Assembly: GCF_026004115.1 (NCBI RefSeq)
Contig: NZ_BPIM01000001.1
Coordinates: 868,001-932,000 of the forward strand
Source: Meiothermus sp.
Lineage (GTDB): Bacteria; Deinococcota; Deinococci; Deinococcales; Thermaceae
Direction of reading: 5' to 3'
DNA: 64,000 bases
Positions 11,495 to 61,053 of the stretch are shown here, in pieces. The stretch's first letter is position 1; every line of letters starts with the position of its first letter. The notes under the pieces are model-generated. The model ran no database searches, had not been told where the DNA came from, and worked only from the letters and a program-made list of their open reading frames with translations. The position numbers and the translations under genes are program-made.

Positions 11495-11547
11495 GCGCAT
11501 AGCCCTGTCTAAACGAAAGGGTAACCAGGATTTCCGGTAAGTTCTTA

Positions 11548-11672
11548 TACCAGATTCGGTTAGTTCGTCACCATTCGGTGACGAACTAACCCGACCGAAG
11601 GGAGTGCTCTAGGATTCAAAAAGACAGCCTCTGGTGTTTTTGGTTTTGTAAACTGTCTTTTTGAATCCGATA
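11548..11672 (+). mobile_element. Two-hairpin MITE-like repeat, copy A (125 bp, no internal units)
   Basis: The ends are TACCAGATTC and the complement of TACCGATTC-like GAATCCGATA, flanked by TTA at 11545-11547 and 11673-11675. The left hairpin is a perfect 15-bp stem (11558-11572 with 11577-11591, loop ATTC). The right hairpin pairs GGATTCAAAAAGACAG with CTGTCTTTTTGAATCC. It contains no ORF. The right TTA duplication is exactly the TAA stop codon of the next leftward gene (11673-11675). Confidence 0.85.
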
Positions 11673-12077
11673 TTACGGCTTTTGGGGGAAAAACGCCTGG
11701 GCCATCTGGGCCATAGGGGCTAGCTCATGGTGCTGCTCGGCCATCACTCGGACAGCGGTACTCAGACTTTGGCCCTTGGCTTCGGCCTCGTGGGCCCGCT
11801 GGCTCCACTGCTGCCACTGCTGCTCGGCCTGGCGGGCGCGCAGCTCGGCGCTCTCGGCCCGCTGGCGGTGCACCTCCCGCCCAAAAAAATACCCCGCCGC
11901 CGCAAAAGCAATGGCCTCCACCCCGGCAAAAAGGTAGAGGGCACGGTTCCAGGTGGTCTCGCTCGAGTCCAGCAGGCTCAACATGTACACCACCAAAACC
12001 GCAAACCCCACCAACACCGCCGCCCCTATCCAGAGGGTGGCCCGCTCCCTAACCTGGGTCGGTTTGTCTTCGGTCAT
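11673..12077 (-). CDS. Membrane protein with two TM helices and a coiled-coil tail, unknown function
   Basis: ATG 12077 is chosen because GGAGG lies 5 bases upstream; an in-frame ATG at 12098 has no such site. The 134-residue protein has two membrane segments (about 17-37 and 46-66). An alanine-, glutamate- and glutamine-rich stretch of about 45 residues (REVHRQRAESAELRARQAEQ onward) should form a coiled coil in the cytoplasm. I do not recognise a family. Its stop codon TAA coincides with the right target duplication of repeat copy A, so the repeat inserted precisely at the gene end without changing the protein length. Confidence 0.72.
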   Translation of the reverse strand: MTEDKPTQVRERATLWIGAAVLVGFAVLVVYMLSLLDSSETTWNRALYLFAGVEAIAFAAAGYFFGREVHRQRAESAELRARQAEQQWQQWSQRAHEAEAKGQSLSTAVRVMAEQHHELAPMAQMAQAFFPQKP

Positions 12078-13686: not shown

Positions 13687-16020
<2,334 letters not shown>

Positions 16021-19474: not shown

Positions 19475-19644
19475 TACCAAATCCTCATGAACCCCTTGCC
19501 TTCTCTCCGTTGGGAGAAGGTGGCGACACCCCGACCGCGCCATTTACAAACAGCAATAGGAACAAGATTGACTGCACCTGGGGTGTCGCCGGTTGAGGGA
19601 GCTTGGGACGATCCTCAAAGCCAACTGTCTAAGTAAAGTTGGTA
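19475..19644. mobile_element. Unrelated MITE-like element with TACCAA ends and TCA duplication (170 bp)
   Basis: The ends are TACCAA (19475) and TTGGTA (ending 19644), flanked by TCA at 19472-19474 and 19645-19647. Inside are an 11-bp perfect inverted repeat GGCGACACCCC (19522-19532) with GGGGTGTCGCC (19580-19590), and a hairpin CCTTCTC/GAGAAGG (19499-19520). No ORF is supported. It shares only the TACC ends and the TNA-type duplication with the seven-copy family. It fills the gap between cmk and the E2 gene. Confidence 0.55.
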
Positions 19645-33479: not shown

Positions 33480-33511
33480 CGCAACCGATGCCGTTACACT
33501 CCCGCGACTTA

Positions 33512-33592
33512 TACCAGATTCGGCCAGTTCGTCATCCTTCGGTGACGAACTGGCCTGACCGGAGTTATCCGCGTAGCGGGGGGCTACCGGCA
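33512..33592 (+). mobile_element. Two-hairpin repeat, copy B (truncated: left end only)
   Basis: Begins TACCAGATTCGG after TTA (33509-33511). The left hairpin has stem GGCCAGTTCGTCA/TGACGAACTGGCC, in which TTA-type pairs of other copies are replaced by matching CC/GG changes. It continues into a partial 38-bp unit (GTTATCCGCGTAGCGG), then ends. The right hairpin and right end are missing. It lies just upstream of the apgM promoter. Confidence 0.75.
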
Positions 33593-34854: not shown

Positions 34855-34962
34855 TCGGTTTCTAGCGAATGCTCAGTTCCGCGTTGTGGCTCATCGCGCC
34901 CTTCAAAGATGTGGCCCCTCATCCAGACTGCCACTGTTTTCGTCCAGAAAAAAGGATTCTTA

Positions 34963-35195
34963 TACCAGATTCGGTTAGTTCGGCGCCGGATGGCGGCGAA
35001 CTAACAGGGCCGAAGTTATCCGCGTTGCGGAGGGCGATACCGCCCCTTGGAAGTTATCTGCGTAGCGGAGGGCGTAAGCCCCTTTGGAAGGGAGACGCTT
35101 TCTTCGCCGACCGTTCGGGAGGGGGGTGCTCTAGGATTCAAAAAGATAGCCTCTGGGGGTCTTTGGTTTGGATGATTATCTTTTTGAATCCGGTA
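34963..35195 (+). mobile_element. Two-hairpin repeat, copy C (233 bp, two internal units)
   Basis: Flanked by TTA at 34960-34962 and 35196-35198. The left hairpin is GTTAGTTCG...CGAACTAAC. Two tandem units follow (GAAGTTATCCGCGT and GAAGTTATCTGCGTAG), then AGACGCTTTCTTCGCCGACC. The right hairpin pairs GGATTCAAAAAGATA with TATCTTTTTGAATCC. It lies between the convergent apgM and ABC permease genes, where it could act as a terminator. Confidence 0.88.
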
Positions 35196-35232
35196 TTACT
35201 GCTGGATGGTTCAATTTTTGTGAAGCAGCGCC

Positions 35233-44732: not shown

Positions 44733-44784
44733 AAAAACGATATCCAGGAAACCCGCTTCAGGAAGAGTTCTTTGACACCTCTGA

Positions 44785-44940
44785 TACCAGATTCGGTTGA
44801 TTCATTACCGAGCGGTAACGAATCAACCCAACCAAGGGAGACGCTTTCTTCGCTGACCGACAGGGAGGGGTGTGCTCTAGGATTCAAAAAGACAGCCTAT
44901 GGGTTATTTGGTTTTGTGAACTGTCTTTTTGAATCCGGTA
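44785..44940 (+). mobile_element. Two-hairpin repeat, copy D (156 bp, no 38-bp unit)
   Basis: Flanked by TGA at 44782-44784 and 44941-44943. The left stem is GGTTGATTCATTACC/GGTAACGAATCAACC, whose changes relative to other copies occur on both arms. The spacer GGGAGACGCTTTCTTCGCTG is present without 38-bp units. The right stem is GGATTCAAAAAGACAG/CTGTCTTTTTGAATCC. Confidence 0.87.
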
Positions 44941-44966
44941 TGATTTTTGCTGAGATTAACTAACTT

Positions 44967-46176: not shown

Positions 46177-46346
46177 ATAGCTGATTTCTTGCAGTTTTGC
46201 GTTTCGTGCATGAAATCTGATAACTCCGCCGTAGGTTATTCCGAGCGAAGCGAGGAATCTGATACGTATCGCACAGCAGTAATCTTCGGCTTGAATTACA
46301 AGTTTGAGATAAGGCACTTTTGAAGCGGTTTACGCTTTGGTGTAAA

Positions 46347-46581
46347 TACCAGATTCGGTTAGTTCGGGGCCGGATGGCGGCGAACTAACAGGGCCGAAGT
46401 TATCCGCGTAGCGGAGGGCGATACCGCCCCTTGGAAGTTATCCGCGTAGCGGAGGGCGATACCGCCCCCTGGAAGGCAGACGCTTTCTTCGCCGACCGTT
46501 CGGGAGGGGTGTGCTCTAGGATTCAAAAAGATAGCTTCTGGGGGATCTTTGGTTTGGATGATTATCTTTTTGAATCCGGTA
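46347..46581 (+). mobile_element. Two-hairpin repeat, copy E (235 bp, two internal units)
   Basis: Flanked by TAAA at 46343-46346 and 46582-46585, a 4-base rather than 3-base match. Two nearly identical 38-bp units (GAAGTTATCCGCGTAGCGG...) follow the left hairpin. The right hairpin is GGATTCAAAAAGATA/TATCTTTTTGAATCC. It lies between a rightward gene and the HU terminator. The rest of 46177-46346 holds no gene. Confidence 0.88.
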
Positions 46582-46603
46582 TAAATCTGTAGTGAGGTAC
46601 GGT

Positions 46604-47767: not shown

Positions 47768-48748
47768 TCAGGACAACCGCACCACCACCCGCCCCCGCAC
47801 CTGGCCTTGCAGAATGGCCGGGGCCAGCCCCGGCACTTCCTCCAGGCTTACGGTCTGCATGGCCGCTTCCAGGAAGGGCTTGGGCAGGTCGTGGGCCAGG
47901 CGTTGCCAGGCCCGAAGGCGTTTTTCTCTGGGGCACATTACCGAGTCAATGCCCAGCAGGTTCACGCCCCGCAGAATGAAGGGGAAGACAGTGGTCTCGA
48001 GCTTCACCCCCCCCGCGTTGCCACAGGCCGCTACACTGCTGCCATAGGCCATGCGCGGCAAAACCCCCGCCAGCACCGCCCCGCCTACGGTATCCACCGC
48101 CCCACCAAAACGCTCGGACTCGAGGGGCTTGGCTGGGGCAGCCAGCACGCTGCGATGCAAAATTTCACCAGCTCCCAATGACTTCAAATAGGCTTCTTCA
48201 CTCGTGCGGCCCGTAGCCGCCACCACCCGGTAGCCCAGCCGGGCCAGCAGGGCCGTAGCCACGCTGCCTACACCCCCTGCCGCGCCGGTTACCAGTACAT
48301 CGCGGTTCTTATCTATGGTGTGGGCCTCGAGGGCCATCACCGCCAGCATGGCGGTAAAGCCAGCCGTGCCGATGCCCATGGCTTGCTGCAAGGTGAGCCC
48401 ATCGGGTAGGGGCACCAGCCACTCAGCCCGCACCCTAGCCAGTTGCGCAAGCCCACCCCAGTGCCGCTCGCCCACGCCCCAACCGGTAAGAATCACCAAA
48501 TCCCCCGGCTTATAGTCCGGCGACGCCGACTCCACCACCGTTCCGGCCAGGTCAATGCCGGGAACCATCGGGAAGCTGCGAATCACCTTGCCCGCGCCGG
48601 TAATGGCCAGGCCATCCTTGTAGTTGAGGCTGCTGTAAGCCACCCGCACCAGCACGTCGCCGGGGGGCAGTTCGTCTACCGAAGCCTGCCGAATCTGGGC
48701 CGTGTAGGGGTCGCCGGTTTCTACTACCAAAGCTTTGAAGGTTTGCAT
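47768..48748 (-). CDS. Acryloyl-CoA reductase/YhdH-AcuI family oxidoreductase
   Basis: The 326-residue zinc-free MDR protein matches the YhdH/AcuI branch: VRVAYSSLNYKDGLAITGAGKVIRSFPMVPGIDLAGTV, GWGVGERHWGGLAQLARV, VLVTGAAGGVGSVATALLA and LLGIDSVMCPREKR. AcuI reduces acryloyl-CoA to propionyl-CoA with NADPH, protecting against acrylate; YhdH homologues are less defined. No DMSP or 3-hydroxypropionate genes are nearby. TATGTT (48760-48755) lies 6 bases before the ATG. Confidence 0.92.
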   Translation of the reverse strand: MQTFKALVVETGDPYTAQIRQASVDELPPGDVLVRVAYSSLNYKDGLAITGAGKVIRSFPMVPGIDLAGTVVESASPDYKPGDLVILTGWGVGERHWGGLAQLARVRAEWLVPLPDGLTLQQAMGIGTAGFTAMLAVMALEAHTIDKNRDVLVTGAAGGVGSVATALLARLGYRVVAATGRTSEEAYLKSLGAGEILHRSVLAAPAKPLESERFGGAVDTVGGAVLAGVLPRMAYGSSVAACGNAGGVKLETTVFPFILRGVNLLGIDSVMCPREKRLRAWQRLAHDLPKPFLEAAMQTVSLEEVPGLAPAILQGQVRGRVVVRLS

Positions 48749-48877
48749 GGCAACAACATACAGGATGGCACCTGGAAGCGTCTTGAAACGGCCCCAAAGC
48801 TGAACACCCGCTGATCTTTACCAAAAGGCGGTTAGACTCAAGCCGGGCACAAAAACACCATCCACCACAAGCCCTAA

Positions 48878-49148
48878 TACCAGATCCGGTTAGTTCGGGG
48901 CCGCATGGCGGCGAACTAACCGGGCCGAAGTTATCCGCGTAGCGGAGGGCGATACCGCCCCTTGGAAGTTATCCGCGTAGCGGAGGGCGATACCGCCCCT
49001 TGGAAGTTATCCGCGTAGCGGAGGGCGTAAGCCCCTTTGGAAGGGAGACGCTTTCTTCGCCGACCGTTCGGGAGGGGGGTGCTCTAGGATTCAAAAAGAT
49101 AGTCTCTGGGGGTCCTTAGTTTGGATGATTATCTTTTTGAATCCGGTA
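48878..49148 (+). mobile_element. Two-hairpin repeat, copy F (271 bp, three internal units)
   Basis: Flanked by TAA at 48875-48877 and 49149-49151. It is the longest copy. Units start at 48927, 48965 and 49003 (period 38, 38, then 37); the third carries the variant GGCGTAAGCCCC. The left stem is GGTTAGTTCG/CGAACTAACC, the right stem GGATTCAAAAAGATA/TATCTTTTTGAATCC. It lies between two divergent genes, 60 bases before the sulfurtransferase ATG. Confidence 0.9.
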
Positions 49149-49208
49149 TAACCCGCGCTGTGGCCAACGCCCTCGACCCCCGGCACCCTGCTCTGTTAGG
49201 CTGCTGCT

Positions 49209-50042
49209 ATGAATCCCCTGGTCAGCGTCGAATGGTTGCACCAACACCTCGGCCAACCGCAGCTTCGCATTGTGGATTGCCGCTTTTCCCTACAAGACCC
49301 TACGGCCGGAAGGCGGGCCTACCAGGTGGGGCACATTCCAGGGGCCATTTTTTTGGATCTGGAGCAAGACCTCTCTGGGCCCGTAAGGCCCGACCGAAAA
49401 GGTGGCCGCCATCCCCTACCCACACCGAAGGCATTGGCTGAGACCCTGGGCCGTGCTGGTATCGGCAACGAGCACTTTGTGGTGGCCTACGACGAGCCGC
49501 CTGCCGGTGGGATGTATGCCCCGCACCTGTGGTGGCTTTTGCGGTGGCTGGGCCACGACCAGGTGGCTGTGCTGGACGGCGGCATAACGGCCTGGAAAGA
49601 GGCCGGCTACGGAGTTTCTACCCTGGCCGTCGAATACCCCGCTACCTCCTTCAGGGCCTACCCCCGGCCCGAGATGGTGGTGGATGCCGAGGCGGTGGCC
49701 CAGCGTCCGCCAGGCACCATCCTGATTGATTCCAGAGCTCCCGAGCGCTACCGGGGCGAGGTAGAACCCATAGACCCCGTGGCCGGGCACATTCCCGGCG
49801 CCATTAACCGCAACTGGCTGGACAGCCTGGATACCTTGGGGCGGTTCAAGCCAGCCGAGGCCCAGGCGGCACGGTTTGCCGGGCTCGAGGGTGAGGTGCT
49901 TGCGTACTGCGGCTCGGGCGTCTCGGCTACAGTAAATGTGCTGGCGCTCGAGCTCATCGGCAAACCGGCCAGGCTCTACGCAGGTTCGTGGAGTGACTGG
50001 GTATCAGACAACAGCCGTCCGGTGGCAAAAGGCGAGGCTTGA
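49209..50042 (+). CDS. Thiosulfate/3-mercaptopyruvate sulfurtransferase (two rhodanese domains)
   Basis: The 277-residue enzyme has an inactive N-terminal rhodanese domain ([28 protein letters not shown]) and an active C-terminal one ([27 protein letters not shown]) with the catalytic loop CGSGVSA. CGSGV/I-T/S loops occur in mercaptopyruvate sulfurtransferases, while CRKGV/T is typical of rhodanese, so the mercaptopyruvate type is favoured. It transfers sulfane sulfur to thiols or cyanide. TAGGCT (49197-49202) lies 6 bases before the ATG. Confidence 0.9.
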
Positions 50043-60156: not shown

Positions 60157-60384
60157 TAAACTTTTCTTTCACCCCGTTGGGCTACATGAGTTGCGCAGGA
60201 TGGGTTTGCGAAATGGTTGGACGCAGTAACCACATGCCTGGCGCAGCTCCACTTAAGATCTTGCCGAAGGGTGTTTCGCTTTTCAGTGATGGAGTCAGCC
60301 AGCCCAAACCCCAATTCCAGGTTGCCACCATCGCCTGCAAAACGCTTTGAAGTTAGCAGATGGCGGTGTTTGCAGGATGTCTTA

Positions 60385-60510
60385 TACCAGATTCGGTTAG
60401 TTCGGCGCCGGATGGCGCCGAACTAACCCGACCAAAGGGAGTGCTCTAGGATTCAAAAAGATAGCCTCTGGGGGTCTTTGGTTTGGATGATTATCTTTTT
60501 GAATCCGGTA
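60385..60510 (+). mobile_element. Two-hairpin repeat, copy G (126 bp, no internal units)
   Basis: Flanked by TTA at 60382-60384 and 60511-60513. The left stem is a perfect GGTTAGTTCGGCGCC/GGCGCCGAACTAACC; the right is GGATTCAAAAAGATA/TATCTTTTTGAATCC. The right TTA is the TAA stop codon of the next leftward gene, as in copy A. Bases 60157-60384 hold no gene. Confidence 0.88.
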
Positions 60511-61053
60511 TTACTTGACGCTGATCTCGAGGGTGAAGTCCGCCGCCGTCAGGTCTGCCGGGCCGCTCACCCCAATCACAATGCCCTCGCTCTTGGTGCC
60601 CATGGTGATGTAACGGGTATGATCCTGGGTCTGACCCTTCCAGGGCCGATCCCATTTGTAGTCGGCTTCGCAGCTTCGCACGCTCTGGATATTGGGCGGC
60701 AGGCGGTAGTCGTTGCTGGCGTAAACCCACAGGCTCAGGTTGACGCTGGGGTCGGTGGGAATTACCCGCACCATCAGCTCGCCGATGCCGCTGAGCCGGG
60801 TCTGGGTGGCAAAGATCACGTGTTTGGCGGCAAACTTGGGAGCCTGCAACTGCACGAAACAGGCCATGCTGGAGCGCCAGGCCCAGGAGAGGTCGGGCAT
60901 CTCGATGCCGTTTTCCAGCTTGCCGCTGACCTTTACAACCTTGCCGCGCTCCACCGGGGGAACCACCGTAACATGGCCGGGCCAGCCGCTTTGCGCCAGG
61001 ATGACCGCTACAGCAAGAAAGATCAGAATAACCAAAGACCGAACCACTTTCAT
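60511..61053 (-). CDS. Exported or membrane-anchored protein, unknown function
   Basis: The 180-residue protein has an N-terminal hydrophobic signal (VRSLVILIFLAVAVILAQS) and a beta-rich remainder with two cysteines (SMACFVQLQ; VRSCEADYKW) that could form a disulfide. No family is recognised. The ribosome site GGAGG lies 4 bases before ATG 61053. It is the last gene of a leftward cluster below the right-end BTAD regulator. Its TAA stop is shared with the target duplication of repeat copy G. Confidence 0.7.
   Translation of the reverse strand: MKVVRSLVILIFLAVAVILAQSGWPGHVTVVPPVERGKVVKVSGKLENGIEMPDLSWAWRSSMACFVQLQAPKFAAKHVIFATQTRLSGIGELMVRVIPTDPSVNLSLWVYASNDYRLPPNIQSVRSCEADYKWDRPWKGQTQDHTRYITMGTKSEGIVIGVSGPADLTAADFTLEISVK

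Follow-up and report, generated by a model that had tools for sequence, protein, structure and literature searches.

Architecture of the repeat

The repeat described here is a non-autonomous transposable element, a MITE, of Meiothermus, and the number of its internal tandem units changes in place after insertion, by whole units. It is very probable that the element is moved by a TNA-targeting transposase, probably of IS5 type, and that its array is changed by slippage or unequal exchange.

The window (the whole 64,000-nucleotide stretch of DNA that was analysed) contains six complete copies, with 0, 0, 0, 2, 2 and 3 units, and one truncated copy. All belong to one repeat and lie on the plus strand. 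Elements A (11547..11673, 127 bp) and G (60384..60511, 128 bp) have neither units nor spacer, and element D (44784..44941, 158 bp) has the spacer and no units. Elements C (34962..35196, 235 bp) and E (46346..46582, 237 bp) each have two units and the spacer. Element F (48877..49149) is complete, with three units and the spacer, and measures 273 bp counting ATACC...GGTAT. Element B (33511..33590, end approximate) consists of the 5' hairpin and a partial unit; the unit is partial because the 3' part of the copy is missing. The preliminary description had already given two units to C and E, none to A, D and G and a partial one to B, and all of these assignments are borne out; the lengths that it listed (125, 126, 156, 233, 235 and 271) are off by one or two bases, the measured values being 127, 128, 158, 235, 237 and 273.

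The order of the modules, as in F, is 5' fixed hairpin, units, spacer and 3' fixed hairpin. The 5' hairpin (48888..48921) shows compensatory stem changes across copies. Units 1 (48927..48964) and 2 (48965..49002) are 38 bp long and of the commonest type, unit 1 comprising the hairpins TCCGC-GTA-GCGGA and GGGCG-ATAC-CGCCC. Unit 3 (49003..49039) is a 37-bp variant with the hairpin GGGC-GTAA-GCCC, in which GGGCGTAAGCCC replaces GGGCGATACCGCCC; this type is mostly the last one in arrays. The spacer module (49048..49079) is followed by the 3' hairpin (49087..49144; GGATTCAAAAAGATAG...TTATCTTTTTGAATCC), which adjoins the right terminal repeat. Direct reading and Tandem Repeats Finder, which reports 48927-49043 with a period of 38 and 3.1 copies, confirm the unit starts first proposed for F (48927, 48965 and 49003), and the proposed unit length of 38 bp applies to units 1 and 2 but not to unit 3. 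F lies between divergent genes (window 48749-49208), oxidoreductase-like (minus strand) and sulfurtransferase-like (plus strand) by ORF reading only. It ends about 60 bp before the start of the sulfurtransferase-like gene and is absent from M. hypogaeus. Elsewhere in the window, a SAM riboswitch (RF00162, 70.4 bits) is present at 15864-16015 on the minus strand.

In the 3.35-Mb Meiothermus genome the 3' module has about 175 matches and the 38-bp unit 216; the reversed-pattern control gives 0 matches against these 216, so the unit pattern is not due to chance. From the stretches around the copies 140 complete elements were parsed, about 35 of the ~175 copies being outside this complete set. The family is mostly 118-321 bp in length, high-copy and devoid of a transposase gene, as is characteristic of a MITE. 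Most of the 140 complete copies fit a length of 127 + 38n + 31s, where n is 0-5 units and s is 0 or 1 spacer. This gives two length ladders, 127/166/204/242/280/318 and 158/197/235/273/310, with a few lengths off the ladder (e.g. 245, 282, 321 and 436). The spacer, previously described as 30 bp long, does exist; it forms a module of its own, 31-32 bp long, which copies across the family either have or lack as one block. Stepwise growth between two fixed end hairpins, as first described, is likewise seen. The series of 0, 2 or 3 units proposed from the window is valid inside it; genome-wide the copies hold 0-5 units and include many with a single unit (33/140).

Transposition and insertion sites

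The ends of the element, TACCRGATTC...GAATCYGGTA, lie within TNA. The 10-bp terminal inverted repeats are found in nearly all of 137 copies and sit just outside the two fixed hairpins. The middle base of the TNA is the same on both sides in 109 of the 137 copies, and all three bases match in 91, compared with 33 expected when the right flanks are shuffled. At nineteen of the sites occupied here, M. hypogaeus has no element, and the two flanks joined by one TNA align across the junction. F is one of these: its target duplication TAA (left 48875..48877, right 49149-49151) corresponds to a single TAA and no element in M. hypogaeus. The empty sites show the insertions to be recent and species-specific and, together with the TNA duplications, substantiate the earlier view that the repeat is transposable. 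Since the nineteen insertions carry 0, 1, 2 or 3 units, elements of all sizes have moved.

The copies are intergenic, with 7 of 139 lying within an ORF compared with 403 of 545 random placements. Gaps between convergent ORFs are moderately enriched (37/116 against 37/221, p = 0.002, on crude ORF calls). At loci C and E, M. hypogaeus has a different member of the family, oppositely oriented; at locus C this copy occupies the very same TTA and has 3 units, compared with 2 here. Such copies suggest either hot spots for insertion or a target that was used more than once, independently. That a single element was inverted at locus C is disfavoured, as the two species hold different subfamilies there; because of this difference, independent insertion of two elements at the same TNA is the better fit.

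A second small element is found at window 19475-19644, with the ends TACCAAATCC...TTGGTA and TCA on both sides, and probably represents another TNA-duplicating MITE family. Left ends of similar sequence (TNA-TACCAAATCCACATGAACCCC) recur at several other places in the Meiothermus genome and in that of M. hypogaeus.

The putative transposase partner

Members of the IS1031 group of IS5 are described as targeting TNA and duplicating 3 bp (PMC12016507), and the Meiothermus element likewise duplicates a 3-bp TNA. By analogy, the mover would be a TNA-targeting DDE transposase acting in trans, most likely of the IS5-family type. The target and the length of the duplication are thus shared with the IS5 MITEs of the IS1031 group, while TACCRGATTC is unlike the one repeat of the group that was compared, GAACCTGTCTAGTATCT in ISLrh.

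Searches among the PF01609, PF13586 and PF07592 transposases of the genome revealed no autonomous IS with TACCRGATTC ends, the PF07592 search being positive in no control genome either. Pairs of TACCRGATTC spaced 0.5-3.5 kb apart turned out either to enclose other ISs inserted in a repeat copy or to belong to two separate copies. The transposases that lie between such ends (L141, L144 and L150) were rejected as candidates, as they belong to other ISs that inserted into repeat copies. These inserted ISs (L141 1130-2033, L144 and L150) have different ends, e.g. GAGGCTGTCGTAAA with a TGA duplication. The IS5-like elements of this genome have the ends GAGGCTGTCGTAAA or GAAACTGTTGTAAA instead of TACC. 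As the genome yielded no IS whose ends match, the partner transposase is one that we can only infer.

Change of unit number

The plasmid site C2:15365 has one unit here and two in M. hypogaeus, with no other difference in the element or in the aligned flanks. Of the three clean sites occupied in the same orientation in both species, it is the only one with an in-place change of unit number; the M. hypogaeus genome is a draft assembly of about 180 contigs, several contig ends lie inside or beside arrays, and short-read assembly could alter arrays. The remaining two sites have one unit in both species. In M. taiwanensis, at one site, the copy on pMtWR-220 is identical to the copy in the M. taiwanensis genome (G021), unit number included. 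The comparison of orthologous loci that the preliminary description had suggested therefore finds unit numbers that are not all identical, C2:15365 differing although the other clean sites agree.

Further evidence comes from the variants within arrays. In a five-unit array, a-g-g-g-g, the GCGCAG variant occurs four times side by side, and other private variants also stand in tandem inside single copies (gg, a-h-h and c-c-c). The first and last units within an array are more alike than when shuffled (0/2000 permutations). The 36-37-bp unit variant is found mostly at the 3' end of arrays.

It could be proposed that units are traded between different copies, through gene conversion or homologous recombination, rather than by slippage within a copy. 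Ectopic exchange is possible, because units across the genome hardly differ, with 91 of 163 being of the commonest type. However, private variants adjoin one another in one array, units are more similar within arrays than between them, and the fixed modules that flank the changed array at C2:15365 are untouched; trading between copies is therefore rather unlikely, though it deserves some weight. Of the two processes first suggested, slippage or unit exchange, slippage-type change is thus upheld by one orthologous site and by the duplicated private variants, and exchange between different copies is not needed.

Folding and possible function

Each unit consists of two small hairpins. The whole element is predicted to fold far better than shuffled sequences on both strands (z -6.45 and -5.93), and so is the unit array as DNA. 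The 5' hairpin features paired changes, e.g. from A-T/G-C to G-C/A-T at stem positions 5 and 6, and its paired fraction is 0.908 compared with 0.868 when the arms are shuffled among copies, a modest excess. The folding and the paired changes support the maintenance of a palindrome and imply no particular function.

The strong predicted folding on both strands, the compensatory changes in the 5' hairpin, the intergenic location and the excess between convergent genes would also suit a selected RNA or DNA structure (a terminator, an attenuator or an mRNA-stability element), with the unit number tuning its strength. Nevertheless, the insertions are recent and species-specific, the convergent excess is that expected of tolerated insertions, as argued for BOX (PMC3049150), and template switching can keep palindromic arms matched without selection. 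The element has no Rfam match at the gathering score, the matches to DUF3800-X and sucA being weak and far below it, and a terminator and promoter scan of 48700-49300, around F, returned nothing. Selection for such a structure is accordingly improbable. A more specific form of this proposal, in which the arrays would be length-variable hairpin cassettes that set the ending or stabilisation of transcripts of neighbouring genes, is very doubtful; if it were true, slippage after each insertion would provide a heritable, reversible tuning of many loci.

Unit number and the history of the copies

In a tree of the fixed modules (about 125 columns), unit numbers of n = 1-3 show no signal among 104 spacer-bearing copies, with 47 changes compared with a shuffled mean of 48.2. 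On the same tree, signal is present for unit presence (32 against 53.9 for shuffled data), for the spacer (42 against 61.0) and for genome of origin (22 against 50.0), and these three signals serve as a positive control for the tree. In addition, copies with identical fixed modules can differ in unit number. Because n lacks the tree signal that unit presence and spacer have, change appears to proceed at two speeds, fast in n once units exist and slow between none and some.

An alternative is that unit numbers were fixed by a few source copies, so that subfamilies of fixed length were transposed and the arrays did not change in place. Unit presence and spacer do track the fixed-module tree beyond chance, and the 0-unit class is for this reason partly a subfamily. 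The absence of tree signal in n = 1-3, the differing unit numbers of copies with identical fixed modules, the private variants duplicated in tandem and the difference of exactly one unit at C2:15365, in an element and flanks that are otherwise identical, make it decidedly improbable that source copies account for the unit numbers in place of such change.

In the preferred combination of transposition with slippage or unequal exchange, the transposase would recognise the terminal ends only, and because of this the middle would be free to vary. The steps would arise, once at least two units are present, through strand slippage during replication or when identical tandem units exchange unequally, and the unit hairpins may help either process. 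Slower changes, in which a module is deleted or gained, would affect the state of 0 versus at least 1 unit, and the spacer. It would follow from ends-only recognition and slippage that the array is neutral or near-neutral cargo, tolerated between genes. That a RAYT (Y1) transposase moves the repeats as palindromes of REP/BIME type, as short tandem hairpins in intergenic DNA might suggest, can practically be dismissed in view of the terminal inverted repeats, the 3-bp target duplication and the clean single-TNA empty sites; REP-type elements are not known to make a target duplication.

Onset of tandem growth in relatives

M. hypogaeus is the best relative, about 92-97% identical in the shared blocks around F. 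Unit-unit junctions number 93 here and 141 in M. hypogaeus, and 0 in 48 other Thermaceae genomes. Thirteen of these 48 genomes hold about 195 units, none adjoining another within the reach of the pattern, and the sister-species copies that were examined belong to the same element and have n = 0 or 1. As the junctions are confined to the pair formed by this Meiothermus and M. hypogaeus, and the sisters have n = 0 or 1, tandem growth is most simply derived in this pair. Sister species still display the ancestral state of one unit, which makes the onset of tandem growth datable and its mechanism testable. In addition, strains of Meiothermus could be typed by the lengths of their arrays.

An extra hairpin module, TGAAGGGCCATCGGCCCCCGGCTAGCGCCGGTACTCAAG, adjoins the spacer in L055 (G001, probably Allomeiothermus silvanus), in L042 (G010, Meiothermus) and in L157 at locus E (M. 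hypogaeus). It is duplicated in L055, and extra modules occur in few copies overall. Since this module has been inserted in relatives, once in duplicate, the modular habit is wider than the 38-bp unit.

Comparison with known modular elements

Literature searches yielded no description of the Meiothermus repeat. The kind of element, which had been thought unusual, does have a precedent: pneumococcal BOX, with the structure boxA-boxB(n)-boxC, has the same plan, including target duplications, a convergent excess and orthologous copies that differ in unit number (PMC3049150). BOX of S. pneumoniae and the Meiothermus repeat have in common two fixed ends, variable tandem inner units and MITE-like terminal repeats, as well as target duplications, predicted stem-loops, about 100-200 copies, the convergent excess and orthologous unit variation (PMC3049150). 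In contrast to BOX, the Meiothermus repeat belongs to another phylum, is GC-rich and features TACCRGATTC ends, a 3-bp TNA, a 38-bp double hairpin and a separate on/off spacer, and it forms tandem arrays only in two species that are close relatives. The likeness is one of build and manner of change, and no kinship of sequence with BOX is claimed. The BOX-type repeats of Streptococcus suis (boxA-F; PMC3049150) are mosaics of modules between fixed ends, resembling in this respect the extra hairpin module of the Meiothermus relatives, although the sequences differ and extra modules are found in few copies here. By this comparison the Meiothermus repeat is a new and apparently independent modular MITE on a plan of known precedent. 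It would bring the cases of the BOX plan to two, apparently independent of each other, the second being in a thermophile from a different phylum.
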